DNA from: Candidatus Jettenia sp. AMX2
GTDB taxonomy: Bacteria > Planctomycetota > Brocadiia > Brocadiales > Brocadiaceae
Assembly (NCBI GenBank): GCA_030583665.1
Contig: CP129469.1
Location: 372,001-436,000 of the forward strand
Length of the DNA: 64,000 nt
Reading direction: 5' to 3'
Shown one piece after another: positions 3,169 to 50,640 of this stretch (the first letter of the stretch is position 1; each line of letters starts with the position of its first letter). The notes under the pieces are model-generated. The model searched no databases. It was given only the letters and a program-made list of their open reading frames with translations, and was not told the DNA's origin. The translations under genes were made by a program, and so were the position numbers.

Positions 3169-5481
3169 GTGATAGCGAACGGTAACAAAACAAAAGGTTT
3201 TATAAGATTTTTTAAGAGCATAAAAGTTAAACTTATCTGCTACTTTATCCTGATGACAACACTTCCCATTGTTATTGTGACCTGCACCGCATACAATCGT
3301 GGAAAAAAAGCCTTAAATGAAAGAGTAAGTGAGAAGTTAACTGCCATTGCTGATTTGAAAAAGGCGCAATTGAATAATTGGGTGCAGGAAAGGTTTGTTG
3401 ATATTGGTGTGCTTTCAACAAACAAGTCTTTAGAGGTTTCATTTTCCAATTTGCTATATTTGAGGAAGGCATTCCGTAGCATCGACAAGATGAAAGAATC
3501 GGAAATTGGTGAAGTTTACTGTAAAAGACTCTCTGAATATCTTCACCAGCTTAAGCTAAAGTTTATTTACTGTGATGAAATCTGCATCCTCAATGCAGAG
3601 GATGGAGAGATAGTAATATCTACAAATGAGTCAAATATCGGATTAATAGACAAAGAGTATCGGTATTATCTTTCCATGTTACAAAACAAAGATATACCTT
3701 TCAAAGGTATCCATTATGATAATTATATAAAACAGATAGGGATAAATTTTTTTGGTATTATGAAAAGGGTAGACCTGATCACTATGGAAGAAACAGAAAT
3801 TATTAATGGCATTGTTCTTATGCGTGTCAGTTCGAAGAATACGATAGAGCCGTTAATAGAAGAATGGCCCGGGAAAGGAGAAACGGGTGAAACTATTTTA
3901 CTTAGCCGGGAAGGGGACAAGTTGATTTTTCTTAATAATACGCGCCATCTTTCAAATACGGCGTTAAAAGCAAATATTTCTGTAAGATCATTTGTTCCTG
4001 AAGCTTTCATGATTGACCCTGAAGAAGAGGGTATTAGAAAAGCCTTTGATTATAGAGGCAGGGAAGTGCTCCTCGCTTTCCGGTATATACCTAATTTAAA
4101 GTGGGGATTAATTGTAAAGCAGGATACTTCTGAAGCCTTTAAACCTATTGTAGAATTAAAGAATCAGGTAATTACCATTGCAATTGTAAGTGTATTGGTC
4201 AGTGTGCTTATCGTTCTTGTCCTAACCCACGGGATTACCCAGCCGATCCTTCAGTTGGTTCAAGGTGCAAATGCGATTGGAAAAGGTGATCTCGGACATC
4301 GTATTCCAATCAATTCTCAGGATGAAATTGGTGTGCTTGCATCAGAATTTAATAAAATGACTGAGAAGCTGCAAGGGGTGTATGCCGGACTTGAGCGGAA
4401 TATTCGTGAGAGAACCTCACAATTGAGAGAGTCAGAAGAAAAATACCGGGAATCCATTAATTTGGCTAATGATGCAATTTTTACTCTTGACGTTGATTCC
4501 GCTCAGATTATCGATGCGAACAAAAAGGCTGAAGAATTATCCGGGTATTCAAAATATGAGTTAACGAGAAGGAGAATATGGGAAATTATTCCGGAATATG
4601 ACAGGGAAAAGGCAAAACAATTATGGTTATTGATCAACAAAACAGGTTCTGGCATGCTTGACAACATACACTGTCAGCGTGCAGACAAAGGCCTTGTTCC
4701 CACCAGTATTAGTGCCAGTGTTATTGAGTACGGTAAAAATAAGATTATTCAGTGGATTTGCAGGGATATTACCGAGAGAAAAAAGATGGAAATGCAATTA
4801 ATCCAGGCTGAAAGGCTGGCTGCTGTGGGAGAATTGGCGGCAGGTGTGGCTCACGAGGTGAATAATCCATTAGGGGGATTGCAAAATTTCGTAAAGATGA
4901 TGAAGAAAGAGCCTGAGAATATTCCCCAGAATTTAGAGTTTTTAGATTTAATGTCGGAAGGATTGAAAAGGATAGAGGTTATTATAAAACGGCTGATGGC
5001 ATTTTCCAGGCCCTATTCTACCCACCGTTCCTATCAGAGTTTAAACGATATTGTTGAGAATTCTCTCCGGTTTGTGGATCATCGAATAAAAGAACAAGGT
5101 ATTCTTTTGAAGAAAATTTTCTCTAAAAATCTTCCTGAAATTCACGCTGATGCCGACAATATTTCGCAGGTTATCATCAATGTTATTGTAAATGCATTAG
5201 ATAGCATGCCAAATGGGGGGGGGGTAACAATTGAAACGGGCTACTGCGATGGCCAGACATCATGTGTACAAGTTAAAATTACTGATAGCGGACCTGGAAT
5301 ACCAGACGATATTCTCAATAAAATATTTCATCCATTTTTCACAACAAAAGAAACGGGAAGTGGTTTAGGGTTGGCAATCAGCAAGAGAATTATTGATGAT
5401 CACAATGGTAGTATAATTGCAAAAAGCTGGCAGGGTAAAGGAACGGCGTTTTTTGTACGCTTGCCAGCAAGAAAAACTTAA
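3169..5481 (+). CDS. Membrane sensor histidine kinase (Cache-HAMP-PAS-HisKA-HATPase)
   Basis: The 770-residue kinase starts at a GTG with a GGAG-like site upstream. A first membrane helix (about residues 20-45) is followed by a roughly 280-residue extracytoplasmic sensor of Cache type, a second helix near 325-350 (ITIAIVSVLVSVLIVLVL), a HAMP domain (TQPILQLVQGANAIGKGDLGH region), a PAS domain (about 425-540) with a C-terminal DITERKKMEMQL linker, and a HisKA domain with phospho-acceptor His562 in AHEVNNPL. The ATPase carries N, G1 (DSGPGIP), F and G2 (GSGLGLAI) boxes. It lies 95 bases before its likely partner, the sigma-54 activator, and both lie immediately upstream of hydrazine synthase. 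A role in hzs control is inferred from position only; the ligand is unknown. Confidence 0.9.
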   Translation: MIANGNKTKGFIRFFKSIKVKLICYFILMTTLPIVIVTCTAYNRGKKALNERVSEKLTAIADLKKAQLNNWVQERFVDIGVLSTNKSLEVSFSNLLYLRKAFRSIDKMKESEIGEVYCKRLSEYLHQLKLKFIYCDEICILNAEDGEIVISTNESNIGLIDKEYRYYLSMLQNKDIPFKGIHYDNYIKQIGINFFGIMKRVDLITMEETEIINGIVLMRVSSKNTIEPLIEEWPGKGETGETILLSREGDKLIFLNNTRHLSNTALKANISVRSFVPEAFMIDPEEEGIRKAFDYRGREVLLAFRYIPNLKWGLIVKQDTSEAFKPIVELKNQVITIAIVSVLVSVLIVLVLTHGITQPILQLVQGANAIGKGDLGHRIPINSQDEIGVLASEFNKMTEKLQGVYAGLERNIRERTSQLRESEEKYRESINLANDAIFTLDVDSAQIIDANKKAEELSGYSKYELTRRRIWEIIPEYDREKAKQLWLLINKTGSGMLDNIHCQRADKGLVPTSISASVIEYGKNKIIQWICRDITERKKMEMQLIQAERLAAVGELAAGVAHEVNNPLGGLQNFVKMMKKEPENIPQNLEFLDLMSEGLKRIEVIIKRLMAFSRPYSTHRSYQSLNDIVENSLRFVDHRIKEQGILLKKIFSKNLPEIHADADNISQVIINVIVNALDSMPNGGGVTIETGYCDGQTSCVQVKITDSGPGIPDDILNKIFHPFFTTKETGSGLGLAISKRIIDDHNGSIIAKSWQGKGTAFFVRLPARKT

Positions 5482-5576: not shown

Positions 5577-6962
5577 ATGGGTAGCAGGATTTTAATAGTA
5601 GACGATGAAAAATTGATGCGCATATCTTTGGAAAGCCAGTTAAAGAAAGAAGGGTATAATGTAAAATCTGTGGACAGTGCCTTGAATGGCCTTAAGATGG
5701 TTAAATCAGAGGAATATGATGTGGTAGTGACAGATTTAAGGTTATCCGAAATGAACGGCATAGAATTTCTGAAAGAGATTAAAAAATATAATCAGGATAT
5801 TATTGTTGTTATTATGACTGCGTATGGCACAGTTGAAAGTGCCGTATCCGCAATCAAGGAAGGAGCATACGATTATATTGCTAAGCCATTTTCTACTGAT
5901 GAGTTGATTATAAAATTGCAAAGAGCTCTTCACTATAAAAATACAACAGCAGAGGTAAATCGTTTGAGGAAAGAAATACAGGGGGAATTTGAGTTTTGTA
6001 ATATTATTGGTAATAGTGAGGCTATGAAAAAGGTTATTGAAAACGTTGAGAATGTCTCAGAAAGAGATACTACCGTACTGATAAAAGGAGAAAGCGGTAC
6101 CGGAAAGGAAAAGATAGCGGGCGCAATTCATTACCATAGTAACAGGAGAACGGGGCCGTTTATTAGGGTAAGCTGTGCTGCATTAAACAGAGAAATACTG
6201 GAAAGTGAACTTTTTGGACATGAAAAAGGAGCTTTTACCGGCGCGATCAGGACAAGACGCGGAAGATTTGAGTTGGCAACCGGCGGTTCAATTTTTTTGG
6301 ATGATATCGATGACATCCCATTGGATATGCAGGTGAAATTATTGCGTGTGCTTCAGGAGAAAACATTCGAAAGAGTTGGCGGTGAAGAAACCCTTTGTGT
6401 AGACGTAAGGGTTATTTGCGCAACCAAGAAAGACCTTTTTGATCATGTGAAAGAGGGTTATTTCAGAGAGGATTTGTTTTACCGGTTAAATGTTGTTCCT
6501 ATTAATATCCCTCCGCTTCGTGAGCGAAAGGAGGACATTCCCAGTCTGATAAATCATTTTTTGAAAAAGTTTGTATCTCAAAATGAAGATGCCCTGCCTG
6601 TTGTTTCCCGGGAAACACAAAATGTCTTACTTGCATACGATTGGCCCGGGAATGTCAGGGAACTTGAGAATGTTGTTGAACATGCGGTTGCATTTTCCAA
6701 ATCAGAAGGAATTTCCCTGGAAGCGCTTCCAGAATATATCAGAAAAGTTGACGTGCGCACAGATTTATTATCAATGAACTTATCAAACAGAGAAACAATC
6801 AACTTACAAGACGCTCTTACCGAAGTTGAAATAAAACTTATACAATGGGCACGCAAGAAGGCGAATGGCAACCAGGTAAGAATGGCAGAAATATTGGATA
6901 TACCAAGAACAACCCTTCGCAACAGATTAATGAAATTACAATTATTCGAGAAATCGGTTTAG
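5577..6962 (+). CDS. NtrC-family sigma-54-dependent response regulator
   Basis: The 461-residue protein has a receiver domain (phospho-acceptor Asp53 in VTDLRLSEMNG; Lys103 in AKPF), an AAA+ domain (about 140-375) with Walker A GESGTGKE at 171-178 and the sigma-54 contact loop GAFTGA at 218-223, and a C-terminal Fis-type helix-turn-helix (MAEILDIPRTTLRNRL). The Walker B region reads FLDDIDD where most family members have FLDEIGD, so the catalytic glutamate is an aspartate; the second activator in this window has the normal DE. The gene follows its histidine kinase and ends 486 bases before hzsB, where a sigma-54-like promoter is present. It is the prime candidate for controlling hydrazine synthase. 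The GTGATTT-proximal ATG is preceded by AGAGG. Confidence 0.93.
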   Translation: MGSRILIVDDEKLMRISLESQLKKEGYNVKSVDSALNGLKMVKSEEYDVVVTDLRLSEMNGIEFLKEIKKYNQDIIVVIMTAYGTVESAVSAIKEGAYDYIAKPFSTDELIIKLQRALHYKNTTAEVNRLRKEIQGEFEFCNIIGNSEAMKKVIENVENVSERDTTVLIKGESGTGKEKIAGAIHYHSNRRTGPFIRVSCAALNREILESELFGHEKGAFTGAIRTRRGRFELATGGSIFLDDIDDIPLDMQVKLLRVLQEKTFERVGGEETLCVDVRVICATKKDLFDHVKEGYFREDLFYRLNVVPINIPPLRERKEDIPSLINHFLKKFVSQNEDALPVVSRETQNVLLAYDWPGNVRELENVVEHAVAFSKSEGISLEALPEYIRKVDVRTDLLSMNLSNRETINLQDALTEVEIKLIQWARKKANGNQVRMAEILDIPRTTLRNRLMKLQLFEKSV

Positions 6963-6974
6963 GAGAAAACAAAT

Positions 6975-7002
6975 CATTTTTATCTGACGATAGATAAAAA
7001 TG
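6975..7002. promoter_or_regulatory. Perfect 11-bp palindrome, candidate enhancer site (copy 2)
   Basis: CATTTTTATCT and its exact complement are separated by six bases. The site lies 12 bases after the stop of the NtrC-type regulator and about 210-240 bases upstream of the predicted sigma-54 start site of hzsBCA, a distance suitable for an upstream activator sequence. The core matches the palindrome at 2956-2983. It could also act as a weak transcription stop, but it has no GC-rich stem. Confidence 0.5.
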
Positions 7003-7015
7003 GTGTGACCTTAAA

Positions 7016-7044
7016 TTGACACGTTTTATGTTGTTTATTATTAA
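7016..7044 (+). promoter_or_regulatory. Candidate sigma-70 promoter of hzsBCA
   Basis: A consensus -35 TTGACA is followed after 17 bases by TATTAA as a -10 element. Spacing is ideal and the -35 is perfect, but the -10 matches only partly. If used, it would give an untranslated leader of about 400 bases before hzsB. It may work alongside the sigma-54-like promoter further downstream. Confidence 0.4.
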
Positions 7045-7085
7045 ATAGATATGACAATATCTTTATATTAAAACCTGTTTTAGAT

Positions 7086-7099
7086 GACCATTTATGGTC
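7086..7099. promoter_or_regulatory. Inverted repeat GACCAT-TT-ATGGTC upstream of hzs promoter
   Basis: Two perfect six-base arms are separated by two bases. The site is about 115-125 bases upstream of the predicted sigma-54 start, a typical enhancer distance for NtrC-type activators. Binding by the adjacent regulator is inference only. Confidence 0.35.
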
Positions 7100-7186
7100 T
7101 TTTGCCTCGTTTTGCTATATTGGGAGTGTTTTTGTAATTACCAAATAAATAATCACTTATGTTGTAAGTAGAATGTGTCTGACGAG

Positions 7187-7202
7187 TGGTATTTCTTTTG
7201 CT
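7187..7202 (+). promoter_or_regulatory. Candidate sigma-54 (-24/-12) promoter of hzsBCA
   Basis: The sequence TGGTATTTCTTTTGCT has the invariant GG and GC dinucleotides exactly ten bases apart and keeps the TTGCT -12 element; the -24 element is TGGTAT instead of TGGCAC. The predicted start site is near 7213, leaving a leader of about 235 bases. A sigma-54 activator gene lies directly upstream. The same 14 bases (GGTATTTCTTTTGC) recur upstream of the porin gene at 49214-49227. Confidence 0.55.
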
Positions 7203-7305
7203 CACGCTGATGATTGTTATTATACGAAAAATTTTTGCGATTCGTTATAAACACAAGATTATTAACTAATGCTATACTGAATACTGTTTTTTTATAATCA
7301 GTTTT

Positions 7306-7319
7306 GAAAGGAGGTGATT
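7306..7319 (+). promoter_or_regulatory. Distal Shine-Dalgarno-like element in the hzs leader
   Basis: GAAAGGAGGTGATT is a nearly full complement of the 16S rRNA 3' end, yet it lies about 130 bases upstream of the hzsB start, which has its own AGGAGGT site. Equivalent elements occur upstream of HOX, HDH and the porin. No start codon at normal spacing opens a sizeable frame: the nearest TTG gives an 11-codon ORF. Confidence 0.45.
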
Positions 7320-7447
7320 GTTAAGGTTACGAATTTGCAAAAATAAGTTGTAAAGATTAGTGGTTTGAGTAATAGGATTTTATTTTTGTTTTGTTCCGTT
7401 TTATTTTTGGTTCCAACGTTTAATTCCAAGAGACAGGAGGTAGATAG

Positions 7448-8578
7448 ATGCGAAGAGGAATAATAGGTGCGTTGGTGATAGGAGGAGCGATGGTGACGGG
7501 GGGCGGGATAGCCAGTGCGGGATTTATCCAGGGTACCCATGTCAAGACAGAGCATCCGTCGCCGTTTTTTGTCACGACGTCACCGGATGGGAGTATTTTG
7601 TTTGTGGTAAATCAGTCGGGTCACAGTGTAACATTTATTGATACACGGACACAGAAGATCATGGGTGAGGTTGCGGTACAGGTGCAGCCGGAGGCTGCGG
7701 CACCAACGCCTGATGGTTCTTTCTTGTATGTATGCAATGCGGAGAGCGACAGCGTATCGGTGGTAGACGTTGCGAGGAGGCAGGTAGTAAAGGACATCAG
7801 GGTAGGCGACTGGCCGAGTGGGATAAAGATATCGAAGGATGGTAAGACTGCGTATGTTGCATGTTCAGGGAATATGTGGAACACGGTAGATGTGATCGAT
7901 ACGGGGAGGATGGAGAAGATCAGGTCGATATATACGAGTGCATATGGTCCGAGGACATTGGATATATCACCTGATGGGAAGCAGTTGGCGGTTATCAATG
8001 ATTCGGTTGGTTCCATTAACCGGAGCGTGGATTTTATAGATGTGGCTACGGGGAAGGTGACAGAGAACCGGATAATCAAGGAGAGTTCAAACCTCAGGGA
8101 CGTGGTGTATACGCCGGATGGCAAGTATGTTGTTGTCACGTATGAGACTCCGAAGAACTGGTTGCCGGTATGTGAGGCAGAGAACGGGCAGGTGTTTACG
8201 AACAACATAGCGGTGTTGGAGACAAAGCCGGGTGGAAAGGTAGCACGGTTGCCGCTGGATGAGTTGAACAATTATGATGGGAATCCGTATGGTTTGGCGA
8301 TGGATCCGCAGGGAAAGTATCTGTATGTTGGGGTACGCGGGATGCATCGGGTTACTATTCTGTGTATGAACAAGGTTTTGGAGATTGTTCGTTCCAACAG
8401 CCAGGCAGAGCTTGATTATCTGAGGGATGATCTTGGACTGGTAAGGGATTATCTGATAGCAAGGGTTCCGGTAGGGCTTGGGCCAAGTTCAGTATGTTTG
8501 TCACCGGATGGTAAGTTTTGTTATGCGGCGAATTATTTTTCCAACAATATTTCTGTGATAAAGACGCCGGTGGATTAA
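7448..8578 (+). CDS. hzsB: Hydrazine synthase beta subunit
   Basis: The 376-residue protein has a signal peptide (cleavage likely after GIASA) and a YVTN-type seven-bladed beta-propeller: repeats such as SPDGSILFVVNQSGHSVTFI, TPDGSFLYVCNAESDSVSVV and SPDGKFCYAANYFSNNISVI are visible. HZS is the anammox enzyme that condenses NO-derived hydroxylamine with ammonia to give hydrazine; it works as a crescent-shaped dimer of alpha-beta-gamma heterotrimers inside the anammoxosome. The beta subunit carries no CxxCH heme motif and is structural, as here. The ATG is preceded by AGGAGGT. It opens an operon with hzsC and hzsA, the same order as the Kuenenia genes kuste2859-2861. Coding DNA is strikingly G-rich with many AGG and GGG codons. 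Confidence 0.96.
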   Translation: MRRGIIGALVIGGAMVTGGGIASAGFIQGTHVKTEHPSPFFVTTSPDGSILFVVNQSGHSVTFIDTRTQKIMGEVAVQVQPEAAAPTPDGSFLYVCNAESDSVSVVDVARRQVVKDIRVGDWPSGIKISKDGKTAYVACSGNMWNTVDVIDTGRMEKIRSIYTSAYGPRTLDISPDGKQLAVINDSVGSINRSVDFIDVATGKVTENRIIKESSNLRDVVYTPDGKYVVVTYETPKNWLPVCEAENGQVFTNNIAVLETKPGGKVARLPLDELNNYDGNPYGLAMDPQGKYLYVGVRGMHRVTILCMNKVLEIVRSNSQAELDYLRDDLGLVRDYLIARVPVGLGPSSVCLSPDGKFCYAANYFSNNISVIKTPVD

Positions 8579-8636: not shown

Positions 8637-9662
8637 ATGAGCAGAGGAATAGTGAAGATCGGTTTGGTTGCAGCCCTTGGTATTGCAGGGGTAGCAACGA
8701 CCGGTGAATTGATGGCGGGGATGCCACAGGTTATCGGGGTGATTCAGACGGGGCCGGAATGGGAGATGCTTCCAAGAGGTGAGCCATTAACGGTGCCTGA
8801 GGTACATTACCGGGTAAAGCATTCACCGTTTAAGAGTGAGCTGGTGAGATACGGTCAGTTTATATTCAATGATGCTTCCTGGGGTCTGCAGGGTGAGTAT
8901 GCATGCGCCAGTTGTCATTATGAGAGAGGTCAGACAACGGGTTTGATCTGGGATTTAGGAGATGAAGGCTGGGGGAGCTGGAAGAACACGAAGTACATTC
9001 GTGGCGGAAGGTATCTGCCGCCGTTCAGGCATGAGGGTTTCACGGGTCATCCTGATGAGATCGTGGGAGCGACGAGTTCTCTGGACCGTGTATGCGGAAG
9101 GGATCCTGGTTTTGTGTTCAGGAGTGAGAACTTTTCACCTGAGAGGCTTGAGGCGATCATTTGCTATATCAGGGCATTGGAGTTTACGGGTAGTCCGTTC
9201 AGAAATCCGGATGGGAGTCTGACAGAGGCGCAGAAGCGTGGCGAGAAGATATTTAACGATCCGAAGGTAGGATGTGCAGAGTGTCATCCTGGTGATGCGC
9301 TGGATACGAGGTCACTGTTTAGCGATGCACAGACGCATGATGTAGGAACCGGAAGGGTAGGAGTAAAGGGGTTCCGTTCAACGCCGGGTAAGGTATTTAA
9401 CCAGGCAGCGCTGGAGGCAGGGGAAGATCCTTATGGTGAAGAGAGTGATACGCCGATTATCGGGTTAGACCTGGTGAAGGAGTTTGACACGCCGACGCTG
9501 AGGGATATTTATGCATCAGGCACCTATTTTCATGATGGTGGGGCAAGGACGCTGATGGACACGATTAATAATACGGTGAATGACAAGGACATGCACGGCA
9601 GGACATCCCATCTGACACAGCAGGAGATGGAAGACCTGGTAGAGTTTATGAAGGCGTTATAA
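8637..9662 (+). CDS. hzsC: Hydrazine synthase gamma subunit (diheme, CCP/MauG-like)
   Basis: The 341-residue precursor has a signal peptide (cleavage near ELMAG) and two c-heme motifs, CASCH at 90-94 and CAECH at 213-217, in the fold of diheme cytochrome c peroxidases and MauG. In the crystal structure of the Kuenenia enzyme one gamma heme is the proposed site where NO is reduced to hydroxylamine, and a tunnel leads to the alpha subunit. Further histidines expected as distal ligands are present (for example TSHL and YFHDGG). The gene follows hzsB by 58 bases with an AGGAGG site and precedes hzsA. It is not fused to hzsB, unlike in Scalindua. Confidence 0.96.
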   Translation: MSRGIVKIGLVAALGIAGVATTGELMAGMPQVIGVIQTGPEWEMLPRGEPLTVPEVHYRVKHSPFKSELVRYGQFIFNDASWGLQGEYACASCHYERGQTTGLIWDLGDEGWGSWKNTKYIRGGRYLPPFRHEGFTGHPDEIVGATSSLDRVCGRDPGFVFRSENFSPERLEAIICYIRALEFTGSPFRNPDGSLTEAQKRGEKIFNDPKVGCAECHPGDALDTRSLFSDAQTHDVGTGRVGVKGFRSTPGKVFNQAALEAGEDPYGEESDTPIIGLDLVKEFDTPTLRDIYASGTYFHDGGARTLMDTINNTVNDKDMHGRTSHLTQQEMEDLVEFMKAL

Positions 9663-9706
9663 GGTTTTAGGGAAAAAAATCAGAAATGAAAGGAGAAGAC
9701 CAACTG

Positions 9707-12139
9707 ATGAGTAATAAGAGAGTATCAGTAGCAATGGCATCAGCGCTGGTGGCTGGTGCGTTGGTCTGTGGGGAAATCTTTGCGGCTAACAACCAGGTAA
9801 TGACTGGCGGTTCCAAGCCGGGGAAGGCCTTATGGACAGATTATAGTGGCATGTCGAAGGAAGTGCAGGGTCCTGTAGATACGATTCTGTTTACACAGTC
9901 ACCGAGGACAGAGAAGGGTGATCCGTATCACAACTATCCGCATTATGTTTCTGAGGGTAGCAGGATTGTATCACTGAACCTGAAGACGAAGGAACTGAAG
10001 GTATTAACAGGTGATTTTGCGTCAGCGTTTGACCCATGCACCTATTGGGACGGGAAGAAGTTTACGTTTGCCGGTATTCACAAGAAGGGCGGCGGATGTC
10101 AGATCTGGGAGATGAACATTGACGGAAGTGGATTGAGGCAGATGACAGATTATAAGGGAACCTGCCGCAGTCCCATTTATTATGCAGCGGGGAGTATCGA
10201 GGAAGGAAAGGGACGTATTATATGGCGTGACAGGTATTTTGAGGGAGACTGGAAGGAAAGAGGGACGGTAGACAAGACCGGATTCATCATTTTTGCAGGA
10301 GCTCCCGAAGGGGTGATGGACGAGTATCATCAGCCCTATGCTTACAACCTGTACCGTTTGGATACTCAGGGTGGACATGTAACGGAGAGAATAACCGGGC
10401 ATGTATTGTCAGGAATTGAGTATTCACAGTTAAATACCACGATAGATCAGATTACGTATAATTTAAGTTCGAATTATGATCCGTGGTTAACCCCGGATGG
10501 AAACATCCTGTTTTCGAGCGTGCAGGCGAACGGTAGCAGGGCAGGCGGAGAAGGCAGGGTAATGCTTTGTGTGGACAACTGGGATGGTGCATATCCAAGG
10601 CATATATTTGGGAATTATGATGATAGTATTGGAGGGACATGCGGGAGATCGCAGGCCAAGATAACCTTTGGAGACAGGAAGATTGTCTTTGTTGAGTCAC
10701 CATACAGGAATTGGGGTGTAGGGCAGCTGGCAGCAGTGAGCTGGGATGCTCCGTTCAACAAGACCTATGAGAGGGTAAACAAGGATGAAGGCGGGTTGTA
10801 CCGGAGTCCGTATCCGCTTCCGGATGACAGGATGCTGGTATCGTATGCATCCCGTGGTGATTTTGGGATATACTGGTTTGATTTTAAGAATTGCCGTGCC
10901 GGTGAGTTGGTGTATGATGATCCGGAGTGGAACGAGCACCAGCCAGCCCCTGTATATACGAAGTACAGGCCAAGGTGGATCAACACCTTTACGGCAGGTA
11001 AGGATTTTGGGGTGACGGTAGTTACCTATCAGCCGTTTGATCAGGTGAAGGTGGAAGGGTATCCGCATTCCTGGGGAACCTGGATTTGTTTTGACACGAC
11101 GTTAACGCAGGCACCGGTAGGTCCCTATCCGCACCAGAGGGCGAAGGTAACAAAGCCTGGTGATATAAAGGCGGTAAGGATTATTCAGGGAGTACCGTGC
11201 GTTGAGCCGGATGCATCACGTTTCAAAGCAGGAGCGGGAAGTCATCTTCTGGGAGGAGCCAGGTCAAGCACGAATTCCGGGACGGCGTTTCAGCAGAGGA
11301 AGATCATTGGATATCAGTATGTAGAGGATGATGGTTCAGTGGTAACATCCCAGGTATCCGATACTCCGTATTACATCCAGAATCTGGATGAGAGGGGGAT
11401 GGCGGTACAGTCTGCACTGATGTGGGCATATTTAAGGCCATATCATGGGAGGATATGTAGTGGATGTCATGACGGTTCGTATTCAGGAAGGGCATTCCAG
11501 AATCAGCATACGAAGGCGTTGTACAACTGGTGGTATGATGACAGGAGTCACTATGATTCACCTTTTGCATTTGCATACATAAAGTTTGACAAGCAGGGAA
11601 TTTATCAAGGTGTAAAGCACGGGGATGATGTTGTGGTACCGTCAGACGTATATTATGGTGGTCCGTCAGGAACGACGTCCCAGCCGGTGGAAGGGTTAAC
11701 GGAGGAGAAGAGAAGGACGGTGGATTTCAGGAGGGACATTCAGCCGATTATAGATGCGAAGTGTGCGAAGTGTCATGATGCAAACAATCCGCCGGAGTTG
11801 ACAGGTGGTGCAGAGCCAGTTAACGTTGATGGGATAGCGGCATTCAGCAGGGCATACAACAGCCTGCTGGTCCCACAGAGGGGCAAGGATCCGAACATTG
11901 GTGGCAAGTATGTAAATCCGTCAGCGGCCATCAACAGCTTGCTTGTCTGGAGGTTATATGAAGAGCCGTTAAGTCAGTTTACGCCGAAGGAAGACGTATT
12001 TCCGAAGGAAGGCCGGGTGTTGCATGATAAGTTCCTTACCCAGGAAGAAAGGTATATGATTGTAGAATGGATTGACATTGGTGCACAATGGGATAACATT
12101 CAGGGGCCTGACTTCTATGCAGGGTATCGGGGAAGGTAA
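9707..12139 (+). CDS. hzsA: Hydrazine synthase alpha subunit (catalytic diheme subunit)
   Basis: The chosen ATG (GAAAGGAGA upstream) gives an 810-residue precursor; an in-frame ATG seven codons earlier overlaps that site and is less likely. A signal peptide ends near EIFAA. The large N-terminal part is a propeller, followed by a heme domain with CSGCH at 584-588 and CAKCH at 686-690. Tyr592 lies four residues after the first heme histidine; in the Kuenenia enzyme the equivalent Tyr591 ligates heme alpha-I, the site where hydroxylamine and ammonia are combined. Keeping this residue supports a working enzyme. A strong terminator follows 55 bases after the stop, closing the hzsBCA operon. Confidence 0.97.
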   Translation: MSNKRVSVAMASALVAGALVCGEIFAANNQVMTGGSKPGKALWTDYSGMSKEVQGPVDTILFTQSPRTEKGDPYHNYPHYVSEGSRIVSLNLKTKELKVLTGDFASAFDPCTYWDGKKFTFAGIHKKGGGCQIWEMNIDGSGLRQMTDYKGTCRSPIYYAAGSIEEGKGRIIWRDRYFEGDWKERGTVDKTGFIIFAGAPEGVMDEYHQPYAYNLYRLDTQGGHVTERITGHVLSGIEYSQLNTTIDQITYNLSSNYDPWLTPDGNILFSSVQANGSRAGGEGRVMLCVDNWDGAYPRHIFGNYDDSIGGTCGRSQAKITFGDRKIVFVESPYRNWGVGQLAAVSWDAPFNKTYERVNKDEGGLYRSPYPLPDDRMLVSYASRGDFGIYWFDFKNCRAGELVYDDPEWNEHQPAPVYTKYRPRWINTFTAGKDFGVTVVTYQPFDQVKVEGYPHSWGTWICFDTTLTQAPVGPYPHQRAKVTKPGDIKAVRIIQGVPCVEPDASRFKAGAGSHLLGGARSSTNSGTAFQQRKIIGYQYVEDDGSVVTSQVSDTPYYIQNLDERGMAVQSALMWAYLRPYHGRICSGCHDGSYSGRAFQNQHTKALYNWWYDDRSHYDSPFAFAYIKFDKQGIYQGVKHGDDVVVPSDVYYGGPSGTTSQPVEGLTEEKRRTVDFRRDIQPIIDAKCAKCHDANNPPELTGGAEPVNVDGIAAFSRAYNSLLVPQRGKDPNIGGKYVNPSAAINSLLVWRLYEEPLSQFTPKEDVFPKEGRVLHDKFLTQEERYMIVEWIDIGAQWDNIQGPDFYAGYRGR

Positions 12140-16552: not shown

Positions 16553-16566
16553 GAAAGGAGGTGATC
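16553..16566 (+). promoter_or_regulatory. Distal Shine-Dalgarno-like element in the HDH leader
   Basis: GAAAGGAGGTGATC is a perfect 14-base complement of a typical 16S rRNA 3' end but lies about 70-100 bases before the plausible start codons. A frame beginning at the element with a non-standard CTG would stop in TAG just before the ATG at 16636; the frame starting with GTG stops after seven codons. Related elements precede hzsB, HOX and the porin. Confidence 0.45.
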
Positions 16567-16635
16567 TGCAAGAGTCAGTGGTAGCGTTTGTTTTAATAAG
16601 GGCAATCGATTGGCGATTGTGGAGGATTGAATAGG

Positions 16636-28813: not shown

Positions 28814-30172
28814 TTGAAAAAAATACTGATTGTAGATGATGATATAGCAATGGGAGAAATGTGCAGGGAACTCCTTGAAAGCAAGAGATATGCGGCTGAT
28901 GTTGTTTCAAGCAGCAGGGAAGCTATTGAGAAGTTGAAAACGAATGGAGTGTATTCCATTATCCTTACCGATCTGGTTATGCCTGACATGGATGGCATAG
29001 AGGTTCTTAAAAAGGCCAAACAGCTGAATCCGCAGATAGATGTTGTTGTAATGACAAGCTATGGCACTGTTACGAATGCTGTGGAAGCCATGAAGCTTGG
29101 AGCTGCTGATTACATCACAAAACCATTTAAACGTGATGAACTTGTTATTATCATAGAAAAAATACTGCGAATGCAGCGTCTTGAAGGGGAAGTGGACAGA
29201 TTACGCCTTGAGCTTGGGGAAAAATATACATTTGCAAATATTGTCGGTGAAAGCCAGAAGATGAAAAAAATTTATGAAATCATATCAAATGTATCGGGTA
29301 CAGAGGCTAATATTCTGATTCAGGGGGAAACAGGCACAGGGAAGGAACTGGTGGCAAGGGCTGTCCATTACAACAGCGAGCGCAAAGATCGCCCGTTCGT
29401 TAAGGTTGATTGTGCGGCTTTGGCAGAAACACTGTTGGAGAGCGAACTTTTTGGCCATGAGAAAGGGGCTTTTACCGGTGCAACGAAAGACCGTACCGGC
29501 CGCTTCAGAATGGCAGACCATGGTACAATATTCCTGGATGAAATCGGTAATATTCCTCTCCCGATCCAGGCAAAGTTGCTTCGTGTTCTCCAGGACGGTG
29601 AATTTGAATCCGTGGGAAGTGATCATCCCGTGAAAGTGGACGTACGTATCGTTGCGGCAACGAACGCTGATCTTGAGGACCGTGTTGACAAATGCCTTTT
29701 TCGCAGGGATCTTTTCTACCGGCTTAATGTTATCCGTATTTTTCTTCCCGCATTAAGGGAGCGTATAGATGACATACCCATGCTTGTCTCACATTTTTTG
29801 TCTATTCATAATAAAAAGAACAGAAAAACAGTAAAGGGTATTTCTACCGAGGCACTGAACAAACTTATGTCATATAACTGGCCGGGAAACGTAAGAGAAC
29901 TAGAGAACGTTATTGAACGTGCCGTAATTCTTTGTAAAAAGGATATGATAGAGTCTGCAGATATTCCTCTGTATCAGGAGAAAACGCATCTCCACCAGGA
30001 CTTGTCTGGGAAGCCGCTCCAGGCGCTAATGAATCAGGCAGAACGCCAGATTATTATTAATACTATGGAACTGGCACAAGCAGATAAGGAAAAAGCTGCT
30101 AAAATACTCCAGATTTCCAGGGCCAGTCTTTATAACAAGATTAAAAAATACAAGCTTACTGAACTGCTATAA
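28814..30172 (+). CDS. NtrC-family sigma-54-dependent response regulator
   Basis: The 452-residue activator starts at TTG with AAGGA upstream. It has a receiver domain (Asp53 in LTDLVMPDMDG, Lys103 in TKPF), an AAA+ domain with GETGTGKE, the GAFTGA loop and normal Walker B IFLDEIGN, and a Fis-type helix-turn-helix (AAKILQISRASLYNKIKKY). It pairs with the upstream PAS kinase. Target genes are unknown; a sigma-54-like motif lies at the head of this group, and the system could also act elsewhere. Confidence 0.94.
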   Translation: MKKILIVDDDIAMGEMCRELLESKRYAADVVSSSREAIEKLKTNGVYSIILTDLVMPDMDGIEVLKKAKQLNPQIDVVVMTSYGTVTNAVEAMKLGAADYITKPFKRDELVIIIEKILRMQRLEGEVDRLRLELGEKYTFANIVGESQKMKKIYEIISNVSGTEANILIQGETGTGKELVARAVHYNSERKDRPFVKVDCAALAETLLESELFGHEKGAFTGATKDRTGRFRMADHGTIFLDEIGNIPLPIQAKLLRVLQDGEFESVGSDHPVKVDVRIVAATNADLEDRVDKCLFRRDLFYRLNVIRIFLPALRERIDDIPMLVSHFLSIHNKKNRKTVKGISTEALNKLMSYNWPGNVRELENVIERAVILCKKDMIESADIPLYQEKTHLHQDLSGKPLQALMNQAERQIIINTMELAQADKEKAAKILQISRASLYNKIKKYKLTELL

Positions 30173-36294: not shown

Positions 36295-37539
36295 TTAGTG
36301 TGTTACTGCCATTTTCTCTTCCATAATAGCGTCGAACTCAGCGAGGGAAGGATTGATAGTCTTCGGTGTCTCGAGCTTATCGATAACTGCCTCCTGCGTC
36401 TTTAGCCCGTTTCCTGTAACGGAAATCACAATAGATTCGTTTCTTGGTATCTTACCTTGTTCAATAAGTTTCTTTGTGACCGCTACAGTTACACCTCCTG
36501 CAGTTTCTGTAAAAATACCTTCAGTTCTTGCCAGGAGTTTTATGCCTTCTACAAGCTCATCATCGGTTACATCCTCTGCCCATCCACCTGTCACGGTAAT
36601 GGTTTTTATGGAGAAGAATCCGTCTGCCGGATTGCCAATTGCGATTGATTGTGCGATTGTCTTTGGCTTTACAGGTTTTATTACGTCTGTCTCCATTTTG
36701 ACAGCAGTGGTTATTGGTGCGCTCCCGCTGGCCTGGGCGCCGTGTAGTTTTGTATCTGCTTTATCGATAAGTCCTAATTTTTCAAATTCCTTAATAGATT
36801 TTTCAATTTTTGTAATTAAAGACCCGCCTGCCATAGGGACGACAATATGCCGCGGAGCCTTCCACCCAAGCTGTTCCATAATTTCATAACCATAGGTCTT
36901 AGAACCTTCTCCATAATAAGGCCTTAAATTCACATTTACAATAGCCCAGCCGTATTTATCTGCTATCTCGGAGCAGAGCTTATTTACATTATCGTAGTTT
37001 CCTCTGACCTTTATTACGTTTGTGCCATAGATTAATGTCCCGATAATTTTCCCCTGTTCAAGATCTGCCGGCATAATAATATAACTTTCAAGGCCTGCCT
37101 GTACCGCCTGCGCTGCTACCGCATTTCCTAAGTTGCCTGTGGTAGCGCATCCTACCGTCTTATATCCGAATTCCTTTGCTTTTGTCAGGGCCGTTGATAC
37201 AACACGGTCTTTAAAAGAAAAAGTGGGATAATTTACGGAATCATTTTTTATATAAAGTTCTTCTACGCCCAGTATCTTTGCCAGATTATATGCCTTAATA
37301 AGAGGTGTAAAGCCAACATGTGCGCCAACCGTAGGCTCGCCGTCAACAGGGAGGAGTTCCCGGTAACGCCACATCGTTTTACCCCGTGATTCTATTACTT
37401 TTCTGGTAAGAATTTTTTTGATTTTCTCGTAATCGTATTCAACCTCTAAAGGACCAAAGCAAAACTCACAAACGTGTAAAGGCTCTTTTGGATACGGCTT
37501 TCCACATTCCCGGCATTTTAAACCTTTCACAAATCCCAT
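36295..37539 (-). CDS. thrC: Threonine-synthase-family PLP enzyme, SAM-riboswitch controlled
   Basis: The start ATG is chosen because GGAGGCGAAAAG precedes it, giving 414 residues. An N-terminal zinc ribbon (CRECGKPYPKEPLHVCEFC) is followed by a fold-type II PLP domain with the Schiff-base Lys in YPTFSFKDR and CATTGNLGNAVAAQA. By family it would convert O-phosphohomoserine to threonine. However, a SAM-I riboswitch heads the transcript and a sulfur-carrier gene follows, within a methionine-cycle neighbourhood, so it may instead insert sulfur into O-phosphohomoserine to give homocysteine. Sequence alone cannot decide. An ordinary ThrC elsewhere in the genome would favour the second role. Confidence 0.88.
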   Translation of the reverse strand: MGFVKGLKCRECGKPYPKEPLHVCEFCFGPLEVEYDYEKIKKILTRKVIESRGKTMWRYRELLPVDGEPTVGAHVGFTPLIKAYNLAKILGVEELYIKNDSVNYPTFSFKDRVVSTALTKAKEFGYKTVGCATTGNLGNAVAAQAVQAGLESYIIMPADLEQGKIIGTLIYGTNVIKVRGNYDNVNKLCSEIADKYGWAIVNVNLRPYYGEGSKTYGYEIMEQLGWKAPRHIVVPMAGGSLITKIEKSIKEFEKLGLIDKADTKLHGAQASGSAPITTAVKMETDVIKPVKPKTIAQSIAIGNPADGFFSIKTITVTGGWAEDVTDDELVEGIKLLARTEGIFTETAGGVTVAVTKKLIEQGKIPRNESIVISVTGNGLKTQEAVIDKLETPKTINPSLAEFDAIMEEKMAVTH

Positions 37540-37568
37540 CTTTTCGCCTCCGGCTAATCTAGCCAATA

Positions 37569-37750
37569 AAAAAGCCTCTTTCTCTATATAAATAAGATAG
37601 GAAGAGGCTTTCTTGTGTCCCTATCTTATCTTTTCCCATAATATGAGACAGGAATTAGCACCAGCATCTTATCCTTCAGCATATACTTTCGGATAAGACC
37701 GGTTGCTGTGGCTTCTCAGGGCCAGTCCCTCAGCCACTCTCGATAAGACA
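37569..37750 (-). ncRNA. SAM-I (S-box) riboswitch with terminator/antiterminator
   Basis: Reading the minus strand, the aptamer (37748 to 37624) shows the S-box landmarks in order: TCTTATCGAGAG, GAGGGACTGGCCC, GCAACC and GGTGCTAATTCC, closed by P1 arms TCTTATC and GATAAGA. Downstream an intrinsic terminator is formed by AAGCCTCTT and AAGAGGCTTTTTT (37610-37571). The 3' arm of P1, GATAAGATAG (37630-37621), can instead pair with CTATCTTATT inside the terminator (37600-37591), forming the antiterminator. SAM binding should therefore stop transcription before the threonine-synthase-like gene. S-box riboswitches normally regulate methionine, SAM and sulfur genes. Confidence 0.95.
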
Positions 37751-48957: not shown

Positions 48958-49212
48958 GGTGCAATCGAAATATTCTTTAAGCTATTCACTTGCATCATAT
49001 CATCCACTTTATGGTTAATTTAATGCATATGGCAAAAATACCATAAGAGTTCTTAATTTTTCTTTATTCAATAGAAAGGGCCGCATTTCACACTTTCTCA
49101 TTGATGTCTTAAGTGTCAGTTTGTAGGCAGGTTAAAGAGGGCATTATCAGACGGATTGACAATTTAGGATTACTGAAATATTTAACGGTATCATGAAAAT
49201 GGAGAATGAATA

Positions 49213-49228
49213 AGGTATTTCTTTTGCG
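49213..49228 (+). promoter_or_regulatory. Candidate sigma-54 promoter of the porin gene
   Basis: AGGTATTTCTTTTGCG has GG and GC ten bases apart and shares 14 consecutive bases with the hzs sigma-54-like element. The distance from GG to the distal GAAAGGAGG element is 116 bases here and 118 bases at hzs. The start would be near 49239, about 190 bases before the ATG. Confidence 0.45.
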
Positions 49229-49329
49229 AAATCGCAATATTTGAGTATCATTCTGCTCGCAAAATTGTGTATTTTATGATTATTTTGAGTTTTAGGTAAA
49301 ATATATCTGGCTATACAAAAATATTTTGA

Positions 49330-49340
49330 GAAAGGAGGGA
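49330..49340 (+). promoter_or_regulatory. Distal Shine-Dalgarno-like element in the porin leader
   Basis: GAAAGGAGGGA lies about 90 bases before the porin start, which has its own GAAAGGGGGG site. No start codon follows at normal spacing. It corresponds to the elements before hzsB, HOX and HDH. Confidence 0.4.
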
Positions 49341-49428: not shown

Positions 49429-50640
49429 ATGAAGTATGTATTGAAATTCTGGCTGGCTTGTATCGTATGGCTGGCCTGCATTGCCGGGGGAGCAATAACG
49501 AGCTTTCCGTCATCAGCTTATGCTGCTGAAGATGAGAGCCGGTTGGCTGCCTTCATGAGGGGTATAGAATTTTCTGGCTTTGTTGATACCTATTATAGTT
49601 ACAGGTATTCAAGGCCTGATAAGGTGGAAACAGGGAGCGAAAACCAGTTTCTAAATTTAAGGGCGTGGGATAGAAGGCACAATTCCTTTGCATTGAGCAA
49701 TATACAGCTTTCTGTGTTCAAACCATCGACAGAGGAGAGTCCTATTGGTTTTGGTTTTGTTACCCATTTTGGTGATATTGCTAATCAGGTAATGAATCCG
49801 GATACCAATGAATTTGGAGATGAGATATCTGACAAATTTGCCATCCAGCAGGGGTTTGTTACCTATAAAGCTCCTATAGGCAATGGGTTGGATTTTAAGG
49901 TTGGAAGGTTTGCAACCTGGATTGGCTCAGAACTCATAGAGACCGTTGATAATCCGAACTATTCCCGCGGACTCCTGTTCACTAATGCAATTCCATATAC
50001 CCATACAGGGATCGCTATCAGCTATCCTTTATTGGATACCTTAACGACATCTGCGTTCTTTGTAAACAGTTGGGATGGTCAAGACCAGGATAATAATTCA
50101 GCAAAGAGTTTTGGATACCAGTTTCACTGGGCCTTTGGACAGAATACGGACGTGGTATTTAATGGTATCCATGGGGCAGAACGCGAGGACAGCAGCAAGG
50201 ATTTGAGGCACCTCTGGGATATTGTTGTTGCTCATAGGGTTATGGAAGGGACAAAGCTTATCCTCAATGGTATTTTTGGAACAGAGGCCGGTGGGGGAGC
50301 AACCGGAGGTGTTGGTAAATGGTGGGGGTTCTCCGGTATTCTTTCACAGGACATTACCGATGCCTTTGGTCTTGCACTGAGGGGTGAGTATTTTGATGAC
50401 GGCGATGGTGCTATGACAGGTGTTGCTACTGGAGCCGGTATTGAAGATTCCTTAGGTGCGCTTGTTGGTACTCGCGAAAAAGGTCTTCGGGTCTGGGGAG
50501 CAACACTTACCGCCAATATTAAGATCAGGGAAAACCTCCTGGTAAGACCTGAGGTCCGTTACGATGAGGCAAACCAAGGGGCATTCAGGGGTCACAGGAG
50601 CGACCTTTCAACGGCAATGAGTTTTGCCTATCTGTTCTAA
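49429..50640 (+). CDS. Outer-membrane porin, OmpL-like (BBP2/DUF1597 type)
   Basis: The ATG after GAAAGGGGGG gives 403 residues with a signal peptide ending SAYAA. The N-terminus of the mature protein, FSGFVDTYYSYRY, and the run of strands with aromatic edges match the OmpL-like beta-barrel porin-2 family; the C-terminus is a beta-strand ending in FAYLF with terminal phenylalanine, the BAM signal. It resembles the abundant porin proposed for Kuenenia (kustd1878), from recall. It has a long leader with sigma-70- and sigma-54-like elements and a terminator, all pointing to high and regulated expression. Confidence 0.88.
   Translation: MKYVLKFWLACIVWLACIAGGAITSFPSSAYAAEDESRLAAFMRGIEFSGFVDTYYSYRYSRPDKVETGSENQFLNLRAWDRRHNSFALSNIQLSVFKPSTEESPIGFGFVTHFGDIANQVMNPDTNEFGDEISDKFAIQQGFVTYKAPIGNGLDFKVGRFATWIGSELIETVDNPNYSRGLLFTNAIPYTHTGIAISYPLLDTLTTSAFFVNSWDGQDQDNNSAKSFGYQFHWAFGQNTDVVFNGIHGAEREDSSKDLRHLWDIVVAHRVMEGTKLILNGIFGTEAGGGATGGVGKWWGFSGILSQDITDAFGLALRGEYFDDGDGAMTGVATGAGIEDSLGALVGTREKGLRVWGATLTANIKIRENLLVRPEVRYDEANQGAFRGHRSDLSTAMSFAYLF

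Follow-up and report, generated by a model that had tools for sequence, protein, structure and literature searches.

RpoN/NtrC-family systems combine a promoter that has GG at −24 and GC at −12, ten bases apart, and a TTGC core with upstream dyads, a GAFTGA-containing activator and RpoN; such a promoter is silent unless its activator switches it on. The NtrB/NtrC-glnK-amtB system places a sigma-54 promoter on an ammonium transporter and responds to ammonium limitation, and its kinase, NtrB, is soluble. At the level of mRNA, the STAB-SD of Bacillus thuringiensis cry3A binds the 30S subunit without initiating translation and blocks 5'-3' decay (PMC4113751). In anammox bacteria, the gene content and expression of the kuste2854-2861 hzs cluster have been described (PMC12053348), and it is known from earlier work that members of the family carry a pair of identical hzs copies, each in its own gene neighbourhood (PMC12758564). 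No description of a promoter or of transcriptional control of hydrazine synthase was found in the open-access literature searched; the kind of promoter reported below is known, but that it serves the central enzyme of anammox seems not to have been described there.

Here we compare these systems with a 64,000-nucleotide stretch of Candidatus Jettenia sp. AMX2 DNA (the window, to which positions given without a contig refer), which carries copy A of the hzs operon and a BBP2-family porin gene. The features around hzs copy A are as follows.

3169-5481, + strand: sensor histidine kinase with N-terminal dCache-like sensor, HAMP, PAS, HisKA and HATPase domains (Pfam and structure model)
5577-6962, + strand: NtrC-family response regulator with receiver, AAA+ domain carrying GAFTGA, and Fis HTH (Pfam); presumed activator of hzs copy A
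7006-7021, unstranded: upstream dyad 1, TGACCTTAAATTGACA in this genome and mostly TGACCATAAATAGTCA in orthologues; conserved column block, presumed activator site
7085-7100, unstranded: upstream dyad 2, TGACCATTTATGGTCT; conserved column block, presumed activator site
7187-7202, + strand: predicted sigma-54 promoter of hzs copy A, TGGTATTTCTTTTGCT, from orthologue conservation; predicted start near 7213
7306-7319, + strand: hzs leader element GAAAGGAGGTGATT, STAB-SD-like, complementary to the 16S rRNA 3' tail at 13 of 15 positions
7435-7440, + strand: ordinary Shine-Dalgarno of hzsB, AGGAGG, just before the ATG at 7448
7448-8578, + strand: hzsB (HZS beta), with beta-propeller matches; the second copy is 100% identical from residue 3
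8637-9662, + strand: hzsC (HZS gamma, cytochrome c-type; Pfam)
9686-12139, + strand: hzsA (HZS alpha; HZS_alpha Pfam)

The sequence-only reading had proposed that hzs and the porin share a sigma-54-like element. The 14-mer GGTATTTCTTTTGC is indeed located on the + strand at 7188-7201 and 49214-49227, and these are its only exact copies in the whole 3.46-Mb genome. Both elements have GG and GC ten bases apart and a TTGC core, and the genome encodes RpoN (PF04552, E=3.5e-61). As that reading had cautioned, the bare motif carries no weight by itself: GGYAYN5TTGC occurs 180 times genome-wide and the N6-spaced control 182 times. The genome-wide search that it had suggested gave no excess over the wrong spacing. 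A promoter of this type was found to be kept at hzs copy B and in amt orthologues. Exact matches lay upstream of genes in 18/100 cases versus 3/30 for the control, which is too weak as sole evidence. In a position-weight scan of 570 kb, a sample of stretches chosen around motif matches that covers ~16% of the genome, 28 of 63 high scorers lay outside genes versus 19 of 100 lower scorers. The case for the promoters rests on orthologue conservation.

For hzs copy A, we aligned the interval between the regulator and hzsB from 22 loci of Brocadiaceae and Scalindua, the latter accounting for three of the 22. GGYAYN5TTGC is present in all 22 leaders (shuffle mean 0.13), and on the opposite strand it is absent from all 22. 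The leaders are mostly divergent and variable in length, yet GG-N10-GC is invariant in the alignment. At 12 hzs-A loci, the motif occurred in the intergenic segment in 12/12 and in each of six control segments from the same loci in 0/12. The same motif is found in 22/29 upstream regions of porin orthologues (shuffles 0.15) and in none on the opposite strand, and it is missing from some porin relatives. Read in this way, both elements have the conservation pattern of sigma-54-like promoters, as had been proposed, and sequence comparison lends strong support to the conclusion that such promoters precede both genes; RpoN would bind at 7187-7202 and 49213-49228. In contrast to known RpoN systems, the predicted promoter here would serve the cell's central catabolic enzyme, and at the −24 box GGTAT or GGTAC is commoner than TGGCAC, the consensus given in the literature (PMC12316311). 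The identity of the 14-mer itself did not survive the comparison: the spacer bases differ among orthologues, and we rejected GGTATTTCTTTTGC as a shared regulator site or common element of hzs and the porin.

The earlier reading had also attached meaning to the similar distances between the promoters and a downstream element, GAAAGGAGG. The distances of 118 and 116 are correct (start to start, the element beginning at 7306 and 49330), but the promoter-to-GAAAGGAGG distance spreads widely in orthologues. The element lies 133 ± 10 nt from the start codon in 16 hzs-A orthologues, 100 ± 5 nt for amt and 126 ± 17 nt for the porin, whereas it lies 119 ± 41, 112 ± 41 and 55 ± 26 nt, respectively, from the promoter. 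The steadier distance to the start codon indicates that the 118/116 match is coincidental and that the element is part of the mRNA. It was found in 16/22 hzs-A and 16/26 amt orthologues (shuffles about 0.1; hzs-A 0.12), and GAAAGGAGG or GAAAGGGGG is present in the leaders of most promoter-bearing porin orthologues, at varying distances from the promoter. We consider the leader element to be a real feature, distinct from the promoters.

The 3' tail of this genome's 16S rRNA, located by its sequence at two sites, reads GGATCACCTCCTTTC. GAAAGGAGGTG of the hzs leader complements this tail, and GAAAGGAGGTGATTG of the same leader matches the complement of the tail at 13/15 positions; the porin element reaches 9/15. 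The strongest such element (14/15) precedes an HAO-like multihaem gene, at 16553-16567, where the promoter is sigma-70-like (TTGACT/TATAAT, by eye), so the element occurs independently of sigma-54. GAAAGGAGG also occurs in leaders before ammonium transporter, porin-like, TonB-receptor-like and small exported protein genes (partly by eye; G000:C1:2183802, 3400844, 2673013 and 3198383). Like the cry3A STAB-SD, the element resembles a Shine-Dalgarno sequence, could pair with the 16S tail, lies far upstream of the start codon and is apparently non-initiating; unlike it, this element is from a planctomycete, and its effect on mRNA stability is predicted from sequence. By analogy, the leader element most likely captures 30S subunits with no initiation at that site and would stabilise these mRNAs. 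Alternatively, GAAAGGAGG could begin a short regulatory peptide that acts by attenuation, a reading to which the near-perfect ribosome-binding sequence and a TTG, GTG or ATG 3-14 nt downstream in some species lend some weight; since the candidate peptides vary in length and sequence and are absent from several species, no conserved reading frame follows the element in the orthologues, and no conserved RNA structure was found in the hzs-A leader, we regard it as unlikely though worth keeping in mind. Rfam matches over the window comprised a tRNA and a SAM riboswitch only, the latter at 37623-37749 on the − strand, upstream of the gene at 36295-37566.

Upstream of the hzs-A promoter, the dyad TGRCCN6RGTC is present in 21/22 loci and at least twice in 15/22 (shuffles 0.04), with the two sites at about −200 and −120. 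TGRCCATNNATRGTC, at dyad 2, has no other mismatch-free copy in the genome. Kuenenia copy A retains both dyads and the promoter, as TGGCGCACTTCTTGCT, and no kinase or regulator genes adjoin it in the stretch read (L374, G032:C1:2898000-2912100). This stretch holds two neighbouring copy-A operons with a dyad-2 site at both, the promoter having been read at the first. A broken extra hzsB-like copy with several stop codons was seen elsewhere (G035:C7:89034-90147). It is quite improbable that dyad 2 terminates the regulator operon instead of being an activator site: it does score as a terminator, with a 5-pair stem followed by TTTT, but the stem is short and only three of its pairs are G-C, the consensus of dyad 1 is almost identical yet no T run follows it, and Kuenenia keeps the dyads where no regulator gene adjoins.

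The presumed ligand of these dyads as activator sites is the regulator at 5577-6962, which, as the sequence-only reading had stated, is an NtrC-type protein encoded just upstream of hzs, with a sigma-54 activator domain, GAFTGA and a Fis-type HTH. Its orthologue adjoining hzs is 80-89% identical in Brocadiaceae and 62-64% in Scalindua. The neighbouring kinase differs from the soluble NtrB in that it has a dCache-like sensor and membrane helices: AF2 modelled residues 1-355 with a mean pLDDT of 78.6 and placed the putative sensor between long helices of the kind found in membrane sensors, and Foldseek matches it to dCache sensors such as PscC, Tlp3 and DctB (PDB). This sensor part is 70-75% identical in 12 Brocadiaceae loci and 40% in a Scalindua. 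The genome contains 16 strong sigma-54 activator genes, and a further sigma-54-type response regulator lies between hzs and the porin in the window (28814-30172).

The features around the porin are as follows.

48991-49018, unstranded: conserved porin upstream block, TGCATCATATCATCCAC..ATGGTTAA, from orthologue alignment; presumed site of a different activator
49163-49184, unstranded: second conserved AT-rich block upstream of the porin (alignment)
49213-49228, + strand: predicted sigma-54 promoter of the porin, AGGTATTTCTTTTGCG, from orthologue conservation; predicted start near 49239
49330-49338, + strand: porin leader element GAAAGGAGG, in leaders of orthologues
49429-50640, + strand: BBP2-family outer-membrane porin (Pfam BBP2, E=2.5e-71)

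Searches of both genomes found one BBP2 gene in this genome and one in that of Kuenenia. The core of the porin block is present in 13/29 porin regions and 0/22 hzs-A leaders (shuffles 0.06). It had been suggested that the activator next to hzs governs both genes through the shared element, and the common promoter type and the published co-induction under ammonium limitation would fit a single activator at 5577-6962. However, its presumed dyads, found in 21/22 hzs leaders, are missing from all 29 porin regions, which have the different conserved block instead, and the shared spacer is unconserved; control of both genes by this one activator is thus very improbable. As for common control in general, physiological co-control of hzs and the porin is consistent with the published co-induction of hzs and the BBP2 gene, while a single shared activator does not fit the dyad counts.

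In addition to the two promoters in the window, similar promoters were found at two further transcription units. The second hzs operon, copy B (L119, G000:C1:1134500-1146500), matches copy A without a difference for 4791 bases, an identity that points to gene conversion or to a duplication of very recent date, and its upstream sequence is unrelated. It has a sigma-54-like promoter of its own (G000:C1:1138785-1138800), close to TTTGGTAYN3TTRTGCT in form, with GGYAYN6TGC in 19/21 orthologues, and a different dyad, the hzs-A dyads being present in 0/21. Its gene order is a regulator paralogous to that of copy A (42% identical), a small cysteine-rich gene and then hzs, and both the copy A and the copy B arrangement recur in Brocadiaceae. 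The kuste2854-2861 cluster resembles copy B in having a sigma-54 regulator, a hypothetical gene and hzs, whereas the passages found on it (PMC12053348) cover which genes it holds and how they are expressed and mention no promoter, dyads or copy A circuit. The cysteine-rich protein of copy B (L119:4364-4924) is apparently exported, recurs in the family and has no Pfam match. The AmtB-type ammonium transporter has GGAAYN5TTGC in 23/26 orthologues and GGNAN6TTGC in 25/26. Shuffle means for the four promoter sets (hzs-A, porin, hzs-B and amt) are 0.1-0.5, with none on the opposite strand; since orthologous loci share descent, these counts are not independent events. Sigma-54-like sites also precede an Hsp20-like and two GroEL-like genes (gene names assigned by eye; G000:C1:2426657, 2277024 and 476066), in agreement with the sigma-54 prediction for chaperones in Planctomycetota (PMC12316311).

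The four transcription units have one promoter type with differing conserved upstream sites, which argues for several activators. This differs from NtrB/NtrC-glnK-amtB in that upstream sites are not the same among hzs, the porin and amt. The common factor of these genes would therefore be the sigma factor and not a single activator, each pairing of activator and site being presumed. That the elements are chance matches or parts of a generally conserved leader, with sigma-70 transcribing the genes, is scarcely credible: the motif as such is no commoner than background, but hzs-A leaders that diverge in sequence and length all keep GG-N10-GC, four unrelated upstream regions converge on the motif, and sigma-70-like sites are absent from 6960-7450 and no commoner than in shuffles in the hzs and porin upstream regions.

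We hold with good confidence that sigma-54 promoters served by several activators, together with a stabilising leader that binds 30S subunits, explain these observations overall. At hzs copy A, the membrane histidine kinase with the dCache-like sensor would phosphorylate the neighbouring NtrC-family regulator, which may then bind the dyads at about −200 and −120 and loop to the RpoN holoenzyme waiting at 7187-7202; ATP hydrolysis would open the complex, and transcription would begin near 7213. The porin and the ammonium transporter would use the same sigma factor with other upstream sites, and copy B its own sigma-54 promoter behind the paralogous regulator, such that several activators may converge on RpoN. 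On the mRNAs of hzs copy A, the porin and amt, the 16S-complementary leader sequence would lie roughly 100-140 nt before the start codon, where it may capture 30S subunits without initiation and so stabilise the mRNA.

In K. stuttgartiensis under ammonium limitation, hzs, the BBP2-domain gene KSMBR1_3177 and the amt_1-3 cluster are up, and the same study lists naxLS and the focA_5/nar1 pair among the induced genes (PMC7438415). We matched the Kuenenia loci to the published locus tags through gene order and the uniqueness of each family rather than through accessions, and on this assignment both the BBP2 gene and the first gene of the three-gene amt cluster have the promoter. The transcriptome reads were not assignable to individual hzs copies (PMC7438415); because the copies are near-identical, the induction is not attributable to one hzs promoter. 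The strongest argument for a functional link is that independent transcriptome data agree with the promoters derived from sequence, and the published induction makes low ammonium the likely physiological signal. It is quite possible, if short of probable, that these genes form a sigma-54 regulon of ammonium scarcity, in which each of the two identical hzs operons has its own activator and to which the BBP2 porin and the amt cluster also belong, with the stabilising 30S-binding leader on hzs-A, porin and amt, and that the core enzyme is throttled and not constitutive.

Anammox is unique in using hydrazine synthase, and the conserved sigma-54 promoter, together with the kinase and regulator presumed to serve it, makes control of this enzyme a directly testable circuit. 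This circuit links published responses to ammonium limitation to DNA and could aid the monitoring of anammox reactors. Judging by the leader element, an mRNA stabiliser of the Bacillus type may occur in planctomycetes too. Different switches for the same enzyme offer a possible reason for the persistence of two identical hzs operons, and the core enzyme of these bacteria is probably tuned to ammonium supply.
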